NCBI GenBank assembly: GCA_016793635.1 | Contig: JAEUMD010000011.1 | Coordinates: forward strand, 124,001 to 188,000 | DNA: 64,000 nucleotides | Direction: 5' to 3' | Origin: Hyphomicrobiaceae bacterium | Lineage (GTDB): Bacteria > Pseudomonadota > Alphaproteobacteria > Rhizobiales > Hyphomicrobiaceae | In this document: positions 49,120 through 60,561 of the stretch, piece after piece | Layout: each line of letters begins with the position of its first letter | How positions within the stretch are numbered: the first letter of the stretch is position 1 | The notes under the pieces: model-generated | The model's database searches: none | What the model saw: the letters and a program-made list of their open reading frames with translations, nothing else | Told to the model about the DNA's origin: nothing | Made by a program: the position numbers and the translations under genes

Positions 49120-50370
49120 ATGCACCGCTTGAGAGCTTCCGCCCCCGCACTGACCGGAGATCGAGCAACCTTGACGACCGCCGCACTGATCGTCGCAGCT
49201 GGCCGCGGCTCCCGTGCCGCCCGCCCGGGCGACCCGCCAAAGCAATATGCCCTGCTCGCGGGCACGCCGCTGCTGCGGCGAACCATCGATGCGTTTGTCG
49301 GGCACCCGGACATCGATCTCGTCCAGGTCGTCATTCATCCCGACGACACCGATGCCTATTTCGCCAGCGCACCGGATACGTCCCGCATTCTCCCACCCGT
49401 TACCGGTGGAGCCACGCGGCAGTCGTCCGTACTGTGCGGGCTCGAGGCGCTCGCCGCGTTGCCTCGTGACGTACGACCGGAGCGCGTCCTCATTCACGAC
49501 GCCGCACGCCCGTTCGTACCGGACGCAACCATTACCGCCGTCGTCCGCGCGCTCGACCGCGCCGCCGGTGCGCTAGCCGCCGTCGCTCTCTCCGATACTT
49601 TGAAGCGTGCGTCAGCCGGTCTTCACGTGGCCGAGACCATCCCGCGCGCCGGCCTTTGGCGGGCCCAGACGCCGCAGGGTTTTCATCTCGATGCGATCCT
49701 CGCCGCGCACCGCAAGGCGGCGACGCAGGGGCTTGACGACTTCACCGACGACGCCGCCATCGGAGAATGGGCCGGCCTCGGCGTTGCGATCGTCGAGGAC
49801 AGCACACGCAATCTCAAGATCACCACCATCGACGACCTCGAAGCCGCGGAGCGCCTGATGACGAGCCGAGCGAACATGCCGCCTCTTCTCGAGCCGCGGA
49901 TCGGCACGGGTTTCGATGTGCACCGCTTTACCGCAGGCGATCACGTCTGGCTCTGTGGCGTGCGCATACCTCATACGCATGCCCTCGATGGGCATTCCGA
50001 TGCCGATGTCGGCCTGCACGCCCTGACGGATGCGCTTCTCGGCGCGATTGGCGACGGCGACATCGGCCAACATTTCCCGCCGAGTGATCCGAAGTGGAAG
50101 GGTGCTGCTTCACATCTCTTCCTCGCCGACGCGAGACGGCGGGTCGAGGAACGGGGCGGGCGCATTGCCAACGTCGATGTGACGCTGCTGTGCGAGGCGC
50201 CCCGCATCGGGCCGCACCGCGTCGCGATGCAGCAGACCATCGCCGAAATCCTCGGCATCGATACCGCTCGTGTCGGCGTCAAGGCGACGACGACCGAGCA
50301 GCTCGGCTTTACCGGGCGGCGCGAAGGAATCGCCGCGATGGCGAACGCGCTCGTGCTGCTGCCAATCTAG
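49120..50370 (+). CDS. ispDF: Bifunctional IspD/IspF enzyme of the MEP pathway
   Basis: 416 residues from the ATG of MHRLRASAPAL; a TTG 17 codons later (LTTAALIVAAGRGSR) is an alternative. The N-terminal domain is 2-C-methylerythritol 4-phosphate cytidylyltransferase (AAGRGSRAARPGDPPKQYALL, LIHDAARPFV, LWRAQTPQGF). The C-terminal domain is MECDP synthase (RIGTGFDVHRF, HSDADVGLHALTDALLGAIGDGDIGQHFPPSDPKW, with DVH metal ligands). The fusion is common in alphaproteobacteria and joins steps 2 and 5 of isoprenoid precursor synthesis. It is divergent from dusB. Confidence 0.95.
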   Translation: MHRLRASAPALTGDRATLTTAALIVAAGRGSRAARPGDPPKQYALLAGTPLLRRTIDAFVGHPDIDLVQVVIHPDDTDAYFASAPDTSRILPPVTGGATRQSSVLCGLEALAALPRDVRPERVLIHDAARPFVPDATITAVVRALDRAAGALAAVALSDTLKRASAGLHVAETIPRAGLWRAQTPQGFHLDAILAAHRKAATQGLDDFTDDAAIGEWAGLGVAIVEDSTRNLKITTIDDLEAAERLMTSRANMPPLLEPRIGTGFDVHRFTAGDHVWLCGVRIPHTHALDGHSDADVGLHALTDALLGAIGDGDIGQHFPPSDPKWKGAASHLFLADARRRVEERGGRIANVDVTLLCEAPRIGPHRVAMQQTIAEILGIDTARVGVKATTTEQLGFTGRREGIAAMANALVLLPI

Positions 50371-52361: not shown

Positions 52362-53342
52362 TCAATGCCCGAGGCTCGCCAGCCGCGCCGCGCGCAGCTT
52401 CGCGAAGTCCTCGCCCGCATGATAGCTCGATCGCGTCAGCGGCGTCGCCGACACCAGCAGAAAGCCCTTGGCATAGGCCGTCGTCTCGTACCCCTTGAAC
52501 TCCTCGGGATCGACGTACCTCATCACCTCCGCGTGCTTGCGCGAGGGTTGCAGGTATTGCCCGATGGTGAGGAAATCGACATCGGCCGACCTCAAGTCGT
52601 CCATCAGTTGCAGCACCTCGTCGCGGCGCTCACCGAGCCCCACCATGATGCCGGACTTCGTGAACATCGAAGGGTCGATCTCCTTCACGCGCTGGAGCAG
52701 ACGCAGCGAATGGAAGTAGCGCGCGCCGGGGCGGATCTTGAGATAGAGGCCGGGTACCGTCTCGAGATTGTGATTGAACACGTCCGGCCGTGCCGCGACG
52801 ACAACTTCGAGTGCGCCCGGCTTCCTCAGGAAATCCGGTGTCAGCACCTCGATCGTCGTCGCCGGTGTCGCGGCGCGAATGGCACGGATCGTCTCGGCGA
52901 AATGTCGTGCACCACCGTCGTCGAGATCGTCACGATCGACGGACGTGATGACGACGTGCTCGAGGCCGAGCTTGGCGACGGCATCGGCGACTCGTGCCGG
53001 CTCAGCGGTGTCGAGCGCGTCGGGCAGGCCGGTGCGAACGTTGCAGAATGCACAAGCGCGCGTGCACGTATCGCCCATGATCATCATGGTGGCGTGGCGC
53101 TTGGTCCAACACTCGCCGATGTTCGGGCAGCCCGCCTCCTCGCAGACGGTATTCAGGCCGTTCTCGCGGACGATCCGGCGCGTCTCGCCATATTCCCCGC
53201 TCGACGGCGCGCGAACACGTATCCAATCCGGCTTGCGCTTGACCGGCGTGTCCGGCCGGTTCGCCTTCTCGGGATGGCGCGGTTTCTCGGCTCGGGGCCG
53301 CTCAGGCGCCCCGCCCGATACCGTGTCCAGGATCTTCACCAT
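52362..53342 (-). CDS. lipA: Lipoyl synthase
   Basis: 326 residues. This radical SAM enzyme inserts two sulfurs into octanoyl groups on lipoyl domains. Both iron-sulfur sites are intact: [12 protein letters not shown] (auxiliary cluster, about 67-78) and CTRACAFC (radical SAM, about 93-100), with the closing RSSYHAGE near the C-terminus supplying the Ser ligand. It is needed to modify the lipoyl domains of pyruvate dehydrogenase encoded 3-8 kb away. Confidence 0.97.
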
Positions 53343-55435: not shown

Positions 55436-56836
55436 TCAAACCAGCATCCGCAGCGGATCCTCGATCAGGGCTTTGAAGGCCGCGAGGAACTCCGCCCCCG
55501 TTGCTCCATCGACCGCCCTGTGATCGCACGACAGCGAGCAGCTCATCACCGTTCCAACCTCGATCCGCCCATCCACGACAACCGGACGTTGCTCCGCCGC
55601 CCCGACCGCGAGGATGGTCGCATGCGGCGGGTTGATGACGGCATCGAAATCCCGCACCCCCATCATCCCGAGATTAGAGATGGCCGTGGCACCCCCTTGG
55701 TACTCGTGCGGCGCGAGGCGCCGCCGGCGGGCGCGCTCGGCGAGTGACGCGAGCTCGTCGGAAATCTCCGAGAGCGACTTGAGCTCGGCATGACGGATCA
55801 CCGGGGTGACGAGCCCGCCTTCGATAGCCACGGCGACACCGACGTCCGAAGACTTGTGCCGCAGCATCGCCTCCTCGGTCCAGGTGACGTTGGCGTCCGG
55901 CACCTGTTGCAGCGCGAGAGCCAGCGCCTTTACCAAGAAATCCGTGACGGTCAGCGCCAGTGCCCTGCCGCCACGGCCCGGCGGACCACCGTTCATACGC
56001 GCCCGCGCACGCTGCACCTCCTCCATCCGGCAATCGATCCGCAAGTAGAAGTGCGGCACCGTGCTTTTTGAATACTGGAGACGTTCGGCGATTGCCCGGC
56101 GCATCGCATCGTGCGGCACGGCTTCGTAGCTCGCCGGATCATAAAGGCGGCGGATGGCTGCGTCGGTGAAATCGCCAGCGACGTCCTTCGCAATCGGTTT
56201 CGTCGCTGCCCCCGCTGCGGGGCGCAAGGCACCCTGCTCCAGCGTCGCCAGCGATCGCCCAGCGCCGTCCGCGAGAGGCAATGACGGCTCCCCGAGAACT
56301 TTCTCCCGCTTTTCCGTCGCCATTCCACCTGAAATGTCCGCGGCGGCGGCTCGCGCGCGCCACGCTACGATGTCACGTTTGACGATGCGGCCGTCTGGGC
56401 CGCTGCCGGCGATCGCCGCAAGATCGAGCCGGGCTTCGCGGGCCATGCGGCGCGCCAACGGTGATGCTCGCACGCGACCAGACACGCGGCGGCTTTGCCC
56501 CGCTTCTACCTCCGCTCCGCGCACCGGTGTCATGACGCCCACTCGACCAGGGCGAACAGGGGCTGGGGCTGCTTCGGCGGCTGCCTTCGTGGCAGCGCGG
56601 GCGACGATGGTGGCGATCGGCGTATCGACCGCGACATCATCGCTCCCTGCCGCAACGAGAAGCTCGCCGATTTGGCCGGCGTCGACAGCCTCGACTTCCA
56701 TCGTCGCCGTCGCCGTCTCGACCTCGGCAATGACGTCACCCGGCTCGACGCGGTCCCCCGCCGCCACGAGCCAGCGCGTCAGCTTGCCCGTCTCCATGCG
56801 CGGCGACAGCGCCGGCATCAGCACGTGGATCGGCAT
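55436..56836 (-). CDS. pdhC: Pyruvate dehydrogenase E2 (dihydrolipoyl acetyltransferase) lacking the lipoyl-lysine
   Basis: 466 residues from MPIHVLMPALSPRMETGKL. Domains: lipoyl-like (about 1-78), a linker, the E1/E3-binding domain (ASPLARRMAREARLDLAAIAGSGPDGRIVKRD, about 150-183), and the acyltransferase core with the catalytic SCDHRAVDGATGAEFL near the end. The lipoyl domain reads EVETATATMEVEA where the family has [11 protein letters not shown]: residue 42 is Ala and residue 43 is Thr, so the lysine that carries lipoate is absent. The codons are plainly ACG GCG ACG. The catalytic core looks intact, so the protein is probably functional as core and binding scaffold. Two membrane-protein genes and a DUF5076 gene separate it from pdhB. 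Confidence 0.9.
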   Translation of the reverse strand: MPIHVLMPALSPRMETGKLTRWLVAAGDRVEPGDVIAEVETATATMEVEAVDAGQIGELLVAAGSDDVAVDTPIATIVARAATKAAAEAAPAPVRPGRVGVMTPVRGAEVEAGQSRRVSGRVRASPLARRMAREARLDLAAIAGSGPDGRIVKRDIVAWRARAAAADISGGMATEKREKVLGEPSLPLADGAGRSLATLEQGALRPAAGAATKPIAKDVAGDFTDAAIRRLYDPASYEAVPHDAMRRAIAERLQYSKSTVPHFYLRIDCRMEEVQRARARMNGGPPGRGGRALALTVTDFLVKALALALQQVPDANVTWTEEAMLRHKSSDVGVAVAIEGGLVTPVIRHAELKSLSEISDELASLAERARRRRLAPHEYQGGATAISNLGMMGVRDFDAVINPPHATILAVGAAEQRPVVVDGRIEVGTVMSCSLSCDHRAVDGATGAEFLAAFKALIEDPLRMLV

Positions 56837-56844
56837 CGGTATCC

Positions 56845-57276
56845 TCAGGGCGCGGGGGGATGATCGGGCGTCGGCCAGCGATAGACGAATGTGAGGAAGA
56901 ACAGCGCGAGATAGACCGCGATAGCTACCGCCCAACCGATGCCGACACCGATCTCTTGCTGCGTGATGCCGGCGACGTGCAAACCCGGTATCGGGTTACG
57001 CAGATCCTGCAACGGTACGATCGGTCGCTCGATGCGGTCCCATGCCGCGAACAGTCCGTCTTGCAACCGGCCGACCACGGTCGCAGTGCCACCGAGGAAA
57101 ACCAGGCCGATCGACAGCAATCCGAACGCGACCACCCTCAACATCATCGGTGCGCGGCCGAGAAAGAAGTACAGCGCGGCGACGTAGCCCGAGATGATGG
57201 CGAAGAACAGCGAGAAGACCGTCAATACGGCAGCGATGGCGTTGAACAGGTTCTGCAGGATGTCCGTCTCGTTCAT
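56845..57276 (-). CDS. Uncharacterised membrane protein inside the pdh operon
   Basis: 143 residues from MNETDILQNLFN. Three hydrophobic segments: AAVLTVFSLFFAIISGYVAALYFFLG, VVAFGLLSIGLVFLGG and GIGWAVAIAVYLALFFLTFVYRW. No recognised family. It starts between DUF5076 and pdhC and stops 8 bases before the E2 start, so it is likely co-transcribed with pdh genes. A direct tie to pyruvate metabolism is not shown. Confidence 0.65.
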   Translation of the reverse strand: MNETDILQNLFNAIAAVLTVFSLFFAIISGYVAALYFFLGRAPMMLRVVAFGLLSIGLVFLGGTATVVGRLQDGLFAAWDRIERPIVPLQDLRNPIPGLHVAGITQQEIGVGIGWAVAIAVYLALFFLTFVYRWPTPDHPPAP

Positions 57277-57355: not shown

Positions 57356-57703
57356 TCAATGCGCGGTCCGCCCCTTGATCCGGCCGCTGCGCTGCGCCGA
57401 TGCTTCGCTCTCCGCGGCAGAACGGGTGAAAGCTTCCGTCATTGCCGCGAGGGCCTGCTGGCGTGGCATCTGGCCGTCGAGTTCGACGGCGTCGGCAATG
57501 TGATGGGCGATGTCGCCAAGCATGCGCCCCCACTCAGAGACGTCGTGGCTGAAAGTCTCGGAATGAAAGATGACATGCAGCGCGCCGTCCGCTACCCAGA
57601 CGCGCATCACCTCGACGGAGCTGCTCGCATCGTGCACGCCATCGGGTAACTCGAGCTCCTGCAATACGAGATCGGCCGGCTCGGTCGGATCATTGTCGTC
57701 CAT
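57356..57703 (-). CDS. DUF5076 family protein
   Basis: 115 residues, acidic and soluble. The pattern LELPDGVHDASSSVEVMRVWVADGALHVIFHSETFSHDVSEWGRMLGDIAHHIADAV fits DUF5076, a small family common beside alphaproteobacterial pdh genes. Its start overlaps the previous gene by 14 bases. Function unknown. Confidence 0.75.
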   Translation of the reverse strand: MDDNDPTEPADLVLQELELPDGVHDASSSVEVMRVWVADGALHVIFHSETFSHDVSEWGRMLGDIAHHIADAVELDGQMPRQQALAAMTEAFTRSAAESEASAQRSGRIKGRTAH

Positions 57704-58067
57704 GGATCATCTCCCGCTTGCGCGCCTGCGGCCGGACCAGGCCTGGCCCCCGAAAGAAGGGCACGACGAAGATCCGGAAGAGAAATGCGGTAAGCCACAA
57801 CACCGGCACCACGAACGGGGCCGCAGGGTGACGCCAGTTGACGTCGACGCGGCGGCGGCCATCGAAGCGCAAGACCTTGCTCAGCGTTATCGCCGCCAAA
57901 TCATGCATGGCCCAGAACGGGGCGCACAACAGCAGCGGGAGCGCGTACAGCGAGCCGCGCCGCAGCAGGCCCGCAAGCAGCTCCCATCGCGTGCGCGGCT
58001 GCCAATCCGGCGCAATACCGGGCCGCAATGCGGCGGTCGAGGCCGTGGTGCGGCGACGTTCACGCAT
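57690..58067 (-). CDS. Uncharacterised membrane protein after pdhB
   Basis: 125 residues from [10 protein letters not shown], starting 8 bases inside the 3' end of pdhB. It is Arg-rich at the N-terminus, with hydrophobic stretches [25 protein letters not shown] and [22 protein letters not shown]. No family recognised. Translational coupling to pdhB is evident from the overlap. Confidence 0.65.
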
Positions 58068-59460
58068 AGCAGACCTTCCGCACCGCCTTGACGACGTCTT
58101 CGACACTCGGCAGCGCCAGCTTTTCGAGGTTCGCCGCGTAAGGCATTGGCACGTCCGCGCCCGTCACCTTCGCCGGCGGAGCGTCGAGATCGTCGAATGC
58201 GTCGATGGCGACCCGCGCGCAGATCTCCGAACCGATCGAGCAGACCGGCCAAGCTTCCTCGACCGTCACGAGGCGGTTGGTGCGCGCCACCGATGCCAGG
58301 ATCGTATCCATGTCGATCGGGCGCAGCGACCTGAGGTCGATCACCTCCGCCTCGATGCCGTCGGCGGCGAGGATGTCGGCCGCTTTGAGCGCATAGGTCA
58401 TGCCGCGCAGAAACGAGACGATGGTGACGTCACTCCCGGGGCGCGCGATGCGCGCCTTTCCGATGGGAACGAGGATGTCGTCGCCCACGGGCACAGGTCC
58501 CGATGCCGAATACATCATCTCGTTCTCGAGCATCAGCACGGGATTGCGATCGCGGATAGCGGCTTTGAGCAATCCCTTGGCGTCGGCGGGCGTCGACGGT
58601 GCCACGACCTTCAAGCCCGGAACGTGCGCATACCAGGCAGAGTAGCACTGCGAGTGCTGCGCGGCGACCCGGGCGGCGGCACCATTGGCGCCGCGGAACA
58701 CGATCGGGACGTCGATCTGGCCGCCGGACATGTAGCGCGTCTTTGCCGCCGAATTGACGATCTGGTCGATCGCCTGCATGGCGAAGTTCCACGTCATGAA
58801 CTCGACGACGGGCTTGAGCCCGGCGAGCGCCGCGCCGATGCCGATGCCCGCAAAGCCCTGCTCGGTGATGGGGGTGTCGATGACGCGGCGCGGGCCGAAT
58901 TCCTCGAGCAACCCCTGGCTCACCTTGTAGGCCCCATGATACTGCGCCACCTCCTCGCCGATGAGTAAGACGTCGGGGTCGCGCCGCATCTCTTCCGCCA
59001 TGGCGTCGCGCAACGCCTCGCGGATCGTCTGCGTGACGCTCGCCGTGGGTGCTGATGGCGCGGCGGCTTTGGAAATGGCGGCGGTTGATGTTCCGGCGAC
59101 GGCAGTCTCGTGCGCCGACTTTACTTCAGGCACTTGCTCGAGTGGTGCCGATGGCAGGATCGCCGGAACCGGAGATGGTGCAGGCACCACCGTCGGCGAG
59201 GTCGGCGCGATACCGTCGGCGACGTCGATCGTCGCGATCGGCGTGTTGACCTTGACGCCGGGCGTGCCCGCCGCGACGAGAATGCGCGCGAGGGTTCCTT
59301 CCTCTGCGGCCTCGATCTCCATCGTCGCCTTGTCGGTCTCGATCTCGGCAATGACGTCGCCGGCCTTCACGCTCGCGCCCTCCGCGACGAGCCAACGCGC
59401 GAGCGTGCCCTCATCCATGGTCGGCGACAGCGCGGGCATGAGGATCTCGGTCGATGTCAT
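58060..59460 (-). CDS. pdhB: Pyruvate dehydrogenase E1 beta with N-terminal lipoyl domain
   Basis: 466 residues: a lipoyl domain (about 1-78) with the intact site [13 protein letters not shown] (Lys44), a Pro/Ala-rich linker (about 80-140), then the transketolase-type E1 beta ([88 protein letters not shown]). It forms the E1 heterotetramer with PdhA and decarboxylates pyruvate. E1 beta with a lipoyl domain is known in alphaproteobacteria; here it carries the only intact lipoylation site seen in the operon. Confidence 0.95.
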
Positions 59461-59535: not shown

Positions 59536-60561
59536 TCAAGCCAGAACGTCGGTGGTGAGTTCGCCCGGGTCTGGCTCCGGATCGTCCTGGGCAAAGGCTG
59601 CCGCCGCATTGACGATGGCGCGAACCTCCTTGTCGACGGCCTTGAGTTCGTCCTCGCCAACCCCGGCCTCGACCAGACGCACGCGCACCTGAGTGATCGC
59701 GTCATGATGCTCGCGCATTTCGGCGACCTCCTCCTTGGTGCGATATTTGGCCGGGTCCGACATCGAGTGGCCGCGGTAGCGATAAGTCATCATTTCGAGA
59801 ATGAACGGACCGTTGCCCGCTCGCGTCCATGCGCTGGCGAGGCGCCCCGCCTCACGCACCGCGCGGACGTCCATGCCGTCGACCTGCCAGCCGGGGATCG
59901 CGAACGACTGGCCGCGCTGGGAAAGGTTCGTCGTCGCCGAGGAGCGCTCGATCGCGGTGCCCATGGCGTAGCGGTTGTTCTCGATCACGAACACGACCGG
60001 GAGCCGCCAGAGCTCGGCCATGTTGAAGGCTTCATACACTTGGCCCTGGTTAGCCGCGCCGTCACCGAAATAGCACCACGTAACGGCACCATTGCCGCGA
60101 TACGAATTGGCGAAGGCCAGTCCAGCCCCGAGCGGCACCGAAGCGCCGACGATGCCATGCCCACCGAAGAAGCCCGCCTCCTTCGAGAACATGTGCATGG
60201 AGCCGCCCTTGCCCTTGGAGTAGCCGCTCCGGCGCCCCATCAACTCCGCCATCACGCGGCCGGCATCCATCCCAGAGGCCAGCATCTGGCCATGGTCGCG
60301 GTAGGTCGCGATCACTTGATCGCCTGGCAGGGCCGCCATGGTGAGCCCAGTCACGACGGCTTCCTGTCCGATATAGAGGTGGCAGAATCCGCCGATGAAC
60401 CCCATGCCATAGAGCTGGCCGGCCTTTTCTTCGAAGCGGCGGATCAGCAGCATGTCGCGATAGGCCGCCATATCCTCCTCGCGGCTGAAGGCGGGCGGCG
60501 TCACGGGCTGCTCGGGCAGCGGCGCGGCGGGTGGCCGCGCGGCGCGGATGTGATCGGGCAT
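59536..60561 (-). CDS. pdhA: Pyruvate dehydrogenase E1 alpha
   Basis: 341 residues from MPDHIRAARPP. Thiamine diphosphate motif GDGAANQGQVYEAFNMAELWRLPVVFVIENN (about 164-194), the preceding GHGIVGASVPLGAGLAFA, and the phosphorylation-loop-like TYRYRGHSMSDPAKYRTKEEV. The N-terminal LLIRRFEEKAGQLYGMGFIGGFCHLYIGQEA is the family signature. First of the pdh genes, 75 bases before pdhB. Confidence 0.96.
   Translation of the reverse strand: MPDHIRAARPPAAPLPEQPVTPPAFSREEDMAAYRDMLLIRRFEEKAGQLYGMGFIGGFCHLYIGQEAVVTGLTMAALPGDQVIATYRDHGQMLASGMDAGRVMAELMGRRSGYSKGKGGSMHMFSKEAGFFGGHGIVGASVPLGAGLAFANSYRGNGAVTWCYFGDGAANQGQVYEAFNMAELWRLPVVFVIENNRYAMGTAIERSSATTNLSQRGQSFAIPGWQVDGMDVRAVREAGRLASAWTRAGNGPFILEMMTYRYRGHSMSDPAKYRTKEEVAEMREHHDAITQVRVRLVEAGVGEDELKAVDKEVRAIVNAAAAFAQDDPEPDPGELTTDVLA

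Follow-up and report, generated by a model that had tools for sequence, protein, structure and literature searches.

Textbooks explain active-site coupling in the 2-oxo acid dehydrogenases by the swinging arm that E2 bears, and the pdh locus of this Hyphomicrobiaceae bacterium raises the question of how a pyruvate dehydrogenase (PDH) might work when the lysine for this arm is missing from E2 and present on E1beta. The window, the whole stretch of 64,000 nucleotides that was analysed, carries this locus on the minus strand, where pdhA and pdhB come first, followed by three small ORFs (one of them for a DUF5076 protein), pdhC, four more small ORFs and finally lipA. The pdhA gene (59536..60561) encodes E1alpha with an intact ThDP motif (GDG...ENN), and pdhB (58060..59460) encodes E1beta with an N-terminal lipoyl domain, recognised by Pfam and by alignment. 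Between pdhB and pdhC lie an ORF at 57690..58076 without a Pfam match, the DUF5076 gene (57356..57703; PF16826) and a small membrane-protein-like ORF (56845..57276), also without a Pfam match and 99% identical to its counterpart in the sister species G003. A pattern search revealed a DUF5076-like ORF at the pdh loci of G001, G002, G003, G022, G038 and G060 as well, and with the same pattern none at those of G010, G012 and G204. Downstream of pdhC, the lipoyl synthase gene lipA (52362..53342) was named from a sequence motif that also adjoins most pdh loci of relatives among the loci fetched whole, and no lpd is present among the ORFs between positions 50000 and 62000 of the window.

The pdhC gene (55436..56836 including the stop) encodes an E2 of 466 amino acids, composed of a Lys-less lipoyl domain, an E3-binding domain (PSBD) and a catalytic domain with an intact DHRxxDG motif, and the His motif of E1beta is likewise intact. 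Its lipoyl domain, MPIHVLMPALSPRMETGKLTRWLVAAGDRVEPGDVIAEVETATATMEVEA..., contains ETATATMEVEA, with A42-T43 where D42-K43 is expected, due to a GCG codon (Ala replacing Asp) at 56711-56713 and an ACG codon (Thr, where relatives have Lys) at 56708..56710. An earlier note on this DNA had claimed that PdhC lost its lipoyl-lysine, that the loop holds no other lysine and that PdhB retains an intact site. Codon reading bears out all three, since the only other lysine of the domain, K18, lies outside the hairpin, and the lipoyl-lysine codon of PdhB is AAG (59329..59331). The PF00364 model still matches the lipoyl domain of PdhC with 54 bits. In G003 the PdhC is 89% identical and has the same ETATATMEV, so that the threonine is indeed common to the two sister species. 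Elsewhere, Asp-Lys occupies the E2 site in all named alphaproteobacterial loci that were retained (the best 80 of 536), in a scan biased by having TMEVEAVD among its patterns; a stricter site pattern matched 56 of these 80 and the remaining 24 were read directly. In our alignment, ETDKATMEV is found in 39 of the 45 E2 rows with a lipoyl match and DKAT is kept in 50 of 54 E1beta rows, with 21 further rows lacking a lipoyl match because the E2 is lipoyl-less, because the frame is truncated where a contig or locus ends or, for G304, because the lipoyl domain lies in a different frame.

Comparison of the window genome (G000) with G003, based on trimmed frames and a dS of about 0.3-0.56 for pdhABC, revealed purifying selection throughout the operon. 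The dN/dS is 0.033 for pdhA. Within PdhB it is 0 for the lipoyl domain, where all 8 changes are synonymous, and 0.049 for the E1 part; within PdhC it is 0.055 for the Lys-less lipoyl domain (3 nonsynonymous, 16 synonymous) and 0.051 for the catalytic domain. The linkers have 0.26-0.37. All these values come from one species pair, with few changes in the lipoyl domains. Values of 0.055 and 0.051 imply that the Lys-less domain is constrained as much as the catalytic domain. A cruder count over whole, untrimmed frames gave 0.14-0.15 for G000 and G003 and 0.17-0.27 for two canonical species pairs. A plain pseudogene in G000 and G003 is ruled out by the low dN/dS, and no stops, frameshifts or dN/dS near 1 were found in the window pdh genes.

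On balance, we favour the reading that the window PdhABC is a working PDH whose only arm sits on E1beta. As far as sequence permits a mechanism to be drawn, this would be a second PDH beside AceEF, with an E2 that can no longer be lipoylated. Within the E1 heterotetramer, the lipoyl-lysine of PdhB would receive the acetyl group from ThDP, as known chemistry suggests; the acetylated E1beta arm would then reach the active site of E2, which is intact, and be reoxidised by E3 on the PSBD of E2. Though inert in this scheme, the E2 lipoyl domain might persist in folded form, perhaps to dock E1 or to help assembly.

The proposal that E1beta carries the only intact site holds for the operon and fails for the genome, where intact sites are also found in AceF, the Lpd adjoining it, two SucB proteins and a further PdhC. 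The G000 assembly (26 contigs, completeness 95%, contamination 3.46%) contains five E2-type proteins, namely the window PdhC, AceF on contig C4, one SucB each on C6 and C25, and a PdhC on C26. AceF adjoins AceE and an Lpd bearing a lipoyl domain, which does not belong to the window operon; the lipoyl motifs of AceF and this Lpd are intact, as are those of both SucB proteins. AceE shares 86% identity with its counterpart in G001, a member of the same genus, and for this reason C4 was taken as native. With native AceE, AceF and Lpd and their intact lipoyl sites on another contig, the window PdhABC is not the only route of the cell and may hence be dispensable. An intact second pdhC, which the earlier note had named as grounds against its reading, is formally present on C26, beside lpd and a pdhB cut by the contig start, but this contig is probably foreign, because it has a second rimO (over the cut-off on C17 and C26) and because the best matches for its PdhC, PdhB and Lpd (L131, L126 and L140, respectively) all lie outside the sampled family genomes (L131 is labelled Hyphomicrobiales only and L126 Rhizobiales only). 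On the same evidence its pdhBC-lpd is unlikely to be native. Alternatively, C26 may have been acquired by the window organism, since its tetranucleotide composition does not set it apart from the window. As for the remaining E2-type genes, SucA and SucB on C6 are 84% and 77% identical to those of G001 and thus of the genus type, while the sucAB pair on C25 matches at about 60%, unlike the genus type. Taken by themselves, C25 and C26 (L021, L019), with a second sucAB, a second rimO and a pdhBC-lpd unlike those of the genus, are probably contaminant contigs.

The E1beta-only arrangement, as predicted from gene content, recurs in Hyphomicrobiales relatives, since lineages without any E2 lipoyl domain keep an intact E1beta lipoyl site. 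In genus g8 of the same family, all 8 genomes of the family sample have a lipoyl-less E2 with the catalytic His intact, which starts shortly before the PSBD (some of these short frames carry unrelated upstream sequence), and E1beta reads ETDKATMEV in all 7 whose PdhB N-terminus lies on the contig. In the Methyloceanibacter-like group g55, a lipoyl-less E2 with intact His is found in 7 of 9 genomes among the matches listed for the order sample, a survey of 397 genomes drawn with only the best rows taken, in which lipoyl-less E2s may be undercounted. The other two g55 genomes are G454, with a normal E2, and G304 (L211, 7027-8756), in which the E2 lipoyl domain and catalytic part lie in different frames, which may be a real frameshift or an assembly indel. 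A normal E2 was also observed in G443 (L225) of the order sample. Altogether, the E1beta lipoyl-lysine is intact in 14 of 15 lipoyl-less genomes, these 14 being the ones with the PdhB N-terminus on the contig. A lipoyl query returned the PdhB domain alone in 14 of 16 loci, two domains in G304 and none in G079, where PdhB is cut. In the lipoyl-less E2s of G204 and G010, the two scanned, PSBD and catalytic domain are the sole Pfam matches. One lipoyl-less g55 genome, G371, is imperfectly assembled at this locus, as judged by a stop close to the end of E2 and a part of E1beta that is out of frame.

A PF00198 search of 14 lipoyl-less genomes (all but G079) revealed just two E2s in 12 of them, PdhC and a second one called SucB-like from its frame and score, and three each in G057 and G083. 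In G204, the PF00364 hits comprise PdhB and the SucB-like frame, a frame the size of a BCCP, another the size of a carboxylase, and one further weak match; GcvH presumably falls outside this model. AceE over the cut-off is absent in 7 of the 8 g8 genomes, and none of the 18 genomes searched for a homodimeric PFOR, of which 12 are lipoyl-less, has one over the cut-off; G001 shows a sub-cut-off PFOR match in pieces. In a tree of E1alpha and E1beta, g8 (7 rows, 100/99) and g55 (9 rows, 100/98) form separate clades; G454 is the basal branch of g55, and G304 is placed next to G465. This topology implies at least two deletions, perhaps three. The g55 complexes lacking the domain may themselves be unusual, because GEG replaces GDG in the E1alpha ThDP motif of all 9 g55 loci read (L207-L215), including that of G454. 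The E1beta linker shows no clear lengthening in rows that lost the E2 domain compared with rows that kept it (13 vs 27, p 0.048), being longer in g55 and not in g8, and in the window clade it is no longer than in canonical relatives.

The chief rival to an E1beta-armed PDH is that the window locus is caught in early decay after AceEF took over, with the E2 lysine lost first, followed by the E1beta lysine, the E2 His and the ThDP motif, and finally pdhC itself. We consider this less likely for the window, though serious, because near relatives lost both lysines and the catalytic His. In G001, which possesses AceE, E1beta has lost the lysine (ESASATMEV) and the ThDP motif, and PdhC is taken to be missing because the only two E2 matches of this genome are SucB-like and AceF-like. 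In G002, of the same genus, both lysines are lost (E1beta STGTTTMEI, E2 ETENETIEI) and the E2 His is changed to Arg. Within g20, G022 (with AceE) has lost both as well (AAGSSTLEV and ETATATMEV) together with a His-to-Gln change in E2, and G060, read on two contigs, has EADRSTMEI in E1beta (Lys to Arg), ETETATMEI in E2 and again Gln for His. In G042 (g25, with AceE), a PdhB match is absent in the genome and an E2-like ORF lacks both the lipoyl-lysine and the catalytic His. This lone E2-like gene stands at an eno-lipA locus (L102, 3059-4495) with an open frame and is a possible pseudoenzyme. At the level of the family, AceE appears to have largely replaced PdhABC: it passes the cut-off in 50 of the 99 genomes in the family sample, and a PdhB orthologue (at least 56% identity to window PdhB, our own threshold, with the next matches at 52% or less) occurs in 7 of the 50 AceE-positive and 31 of the 49 other genomes (Fisher p 4e-7, for genomes that are not independent and in several cases incomplete).

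The frames read in these decayed relatives are open, and several observations set G000 and G003 apart from them. Apart from the two substituted residues, all other motifs of the pair are intact and dN/dS is low at the dS given above, with no interrupted frame. In the E1alpha and E1beta tree the pair sits on a stem of 0.14 with tips of 0.01-0.025, whereas the degenerate relatives have branches of 0.51, 0.62 and 0.64, and G001 one of 2.11 (drawn as 1.64); several forks near these relatives are open and their long branches may mislead, and G042, with neither gene at its locus, stands outside this tree. Furthermore, AceE was not found in G002, G003 and G060, whose assemblies are 94, 94 and 54% complete, so that a link to AceE is at most putative for these three. 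In G003, an assembly of 450 contigs, the single further E2 match is a 72-residue piece at a contig start.

A mixed complex in which the lipoyl domains of AceF would act in trans on the E2 core, as is the case for Corynebacterium OdhA with its lipoyl group supplied in trans, is improbable. G000 does encode an AceF whose site is intact, and a lipoyl group acting in trans has a precedent (PMC10415282), but the PdhB lipoyl domain shows no amino-acid change between G000 and G003, and 12 lipoyl-less genomes have no AceF-like E2 that could serve in this way. We give as little credence to a repurposing of PdhABC for another 2-oxo acid or for a structural or regulatory assembly: frames do stay open in relatives without Lys and His, and G042 retains an E2-like ORF in a genome that lacks a PdhB match, but the E1 and E2 motifs in the window are those of the other PDH rows and E1alpha is 71-77% identical to that of canonical relatives. 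Finally, a sequencing or assembly error behind Thr43, conceivable for a somewhat contaminated draft in 26 contigs, is ruled out because the independently assembled G003 shares these residues while differing synonymously in the codons that follow, which also answers the concern of the earlier note about base calls.

For a working PDH armed through E1beta, the observation is stronger than first stated, since whole-domain loss recurs in relatives, and weaker, because of the native AceEF in the window cell: the substitution is real, shared by the sister species and held under purifying selection, while the dependence of the cell on the E1beta arm does not follow.

Comparable rearrangements are known from other bacteria. 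Like that of the window, the PDH of Zymomonas mobilis has an E1 heterotetramer whose beta subunit bears a lipoyl domain; the Zymomonas E2 also keeps a lipoyl domain, whereas in the window the E2 site is dead and in g8 and g55 the E2 domain is gone. The PDH of Mycoplasma hyopneumoniae, reportedly the subject of Matic et al. in 2003, likewise has a lipoyl domain on a subunit other than E2, but there the arm is on E3 and in the window on E1beta (PdhB). PMC7873978 places the Mycoplasma domain on PdhD (E3), and for Zymomonas it cites a 1999 title with the domain on E1beta while its own text says E1alpha. The actinobacterial OdhA of the mixed PDH-ODH complex depends on a lipoyl group supplied in trans (PMC10415282), and shares with the window an E2 catalytic domain reliant on the lipoyl group of another protein. 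It differs in that its E1 and E2 are fused and rely on the E2 of another complex, whereas in the window E1 is split into alpha and beta subunits with the ThDP motif present, E1 and E2 are separate genes without an OdhA-type fusion, and the carrier would be the E1beta of the operon itself. Relocated lipoyl domains have precedent in the E3-borne domain of Mycoplasma and in OdhA. No report of a PDH with its sole lipoyl domain on E1beta was found in open-licence titles and abstract openings, which is weak evidence of novelty.

In the order as a whole, Hyphomicrobiales PDH has probably moved its sole arm from E2 to E1beta repeatedly, by deletion in g8, by deletion once or twice in g55 and by point mutation in the window clade, and E2 would in each case be reduced to an acetyltransferase and E3-binding core that depends on arms anchored on E1. 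Within the family, complexes grade from intact ones through those with an armless E2 to those that have lost both arms and the His, and a PDH with all its arms on E1, if true, would test whether coupling needs an arm anchored in the core.
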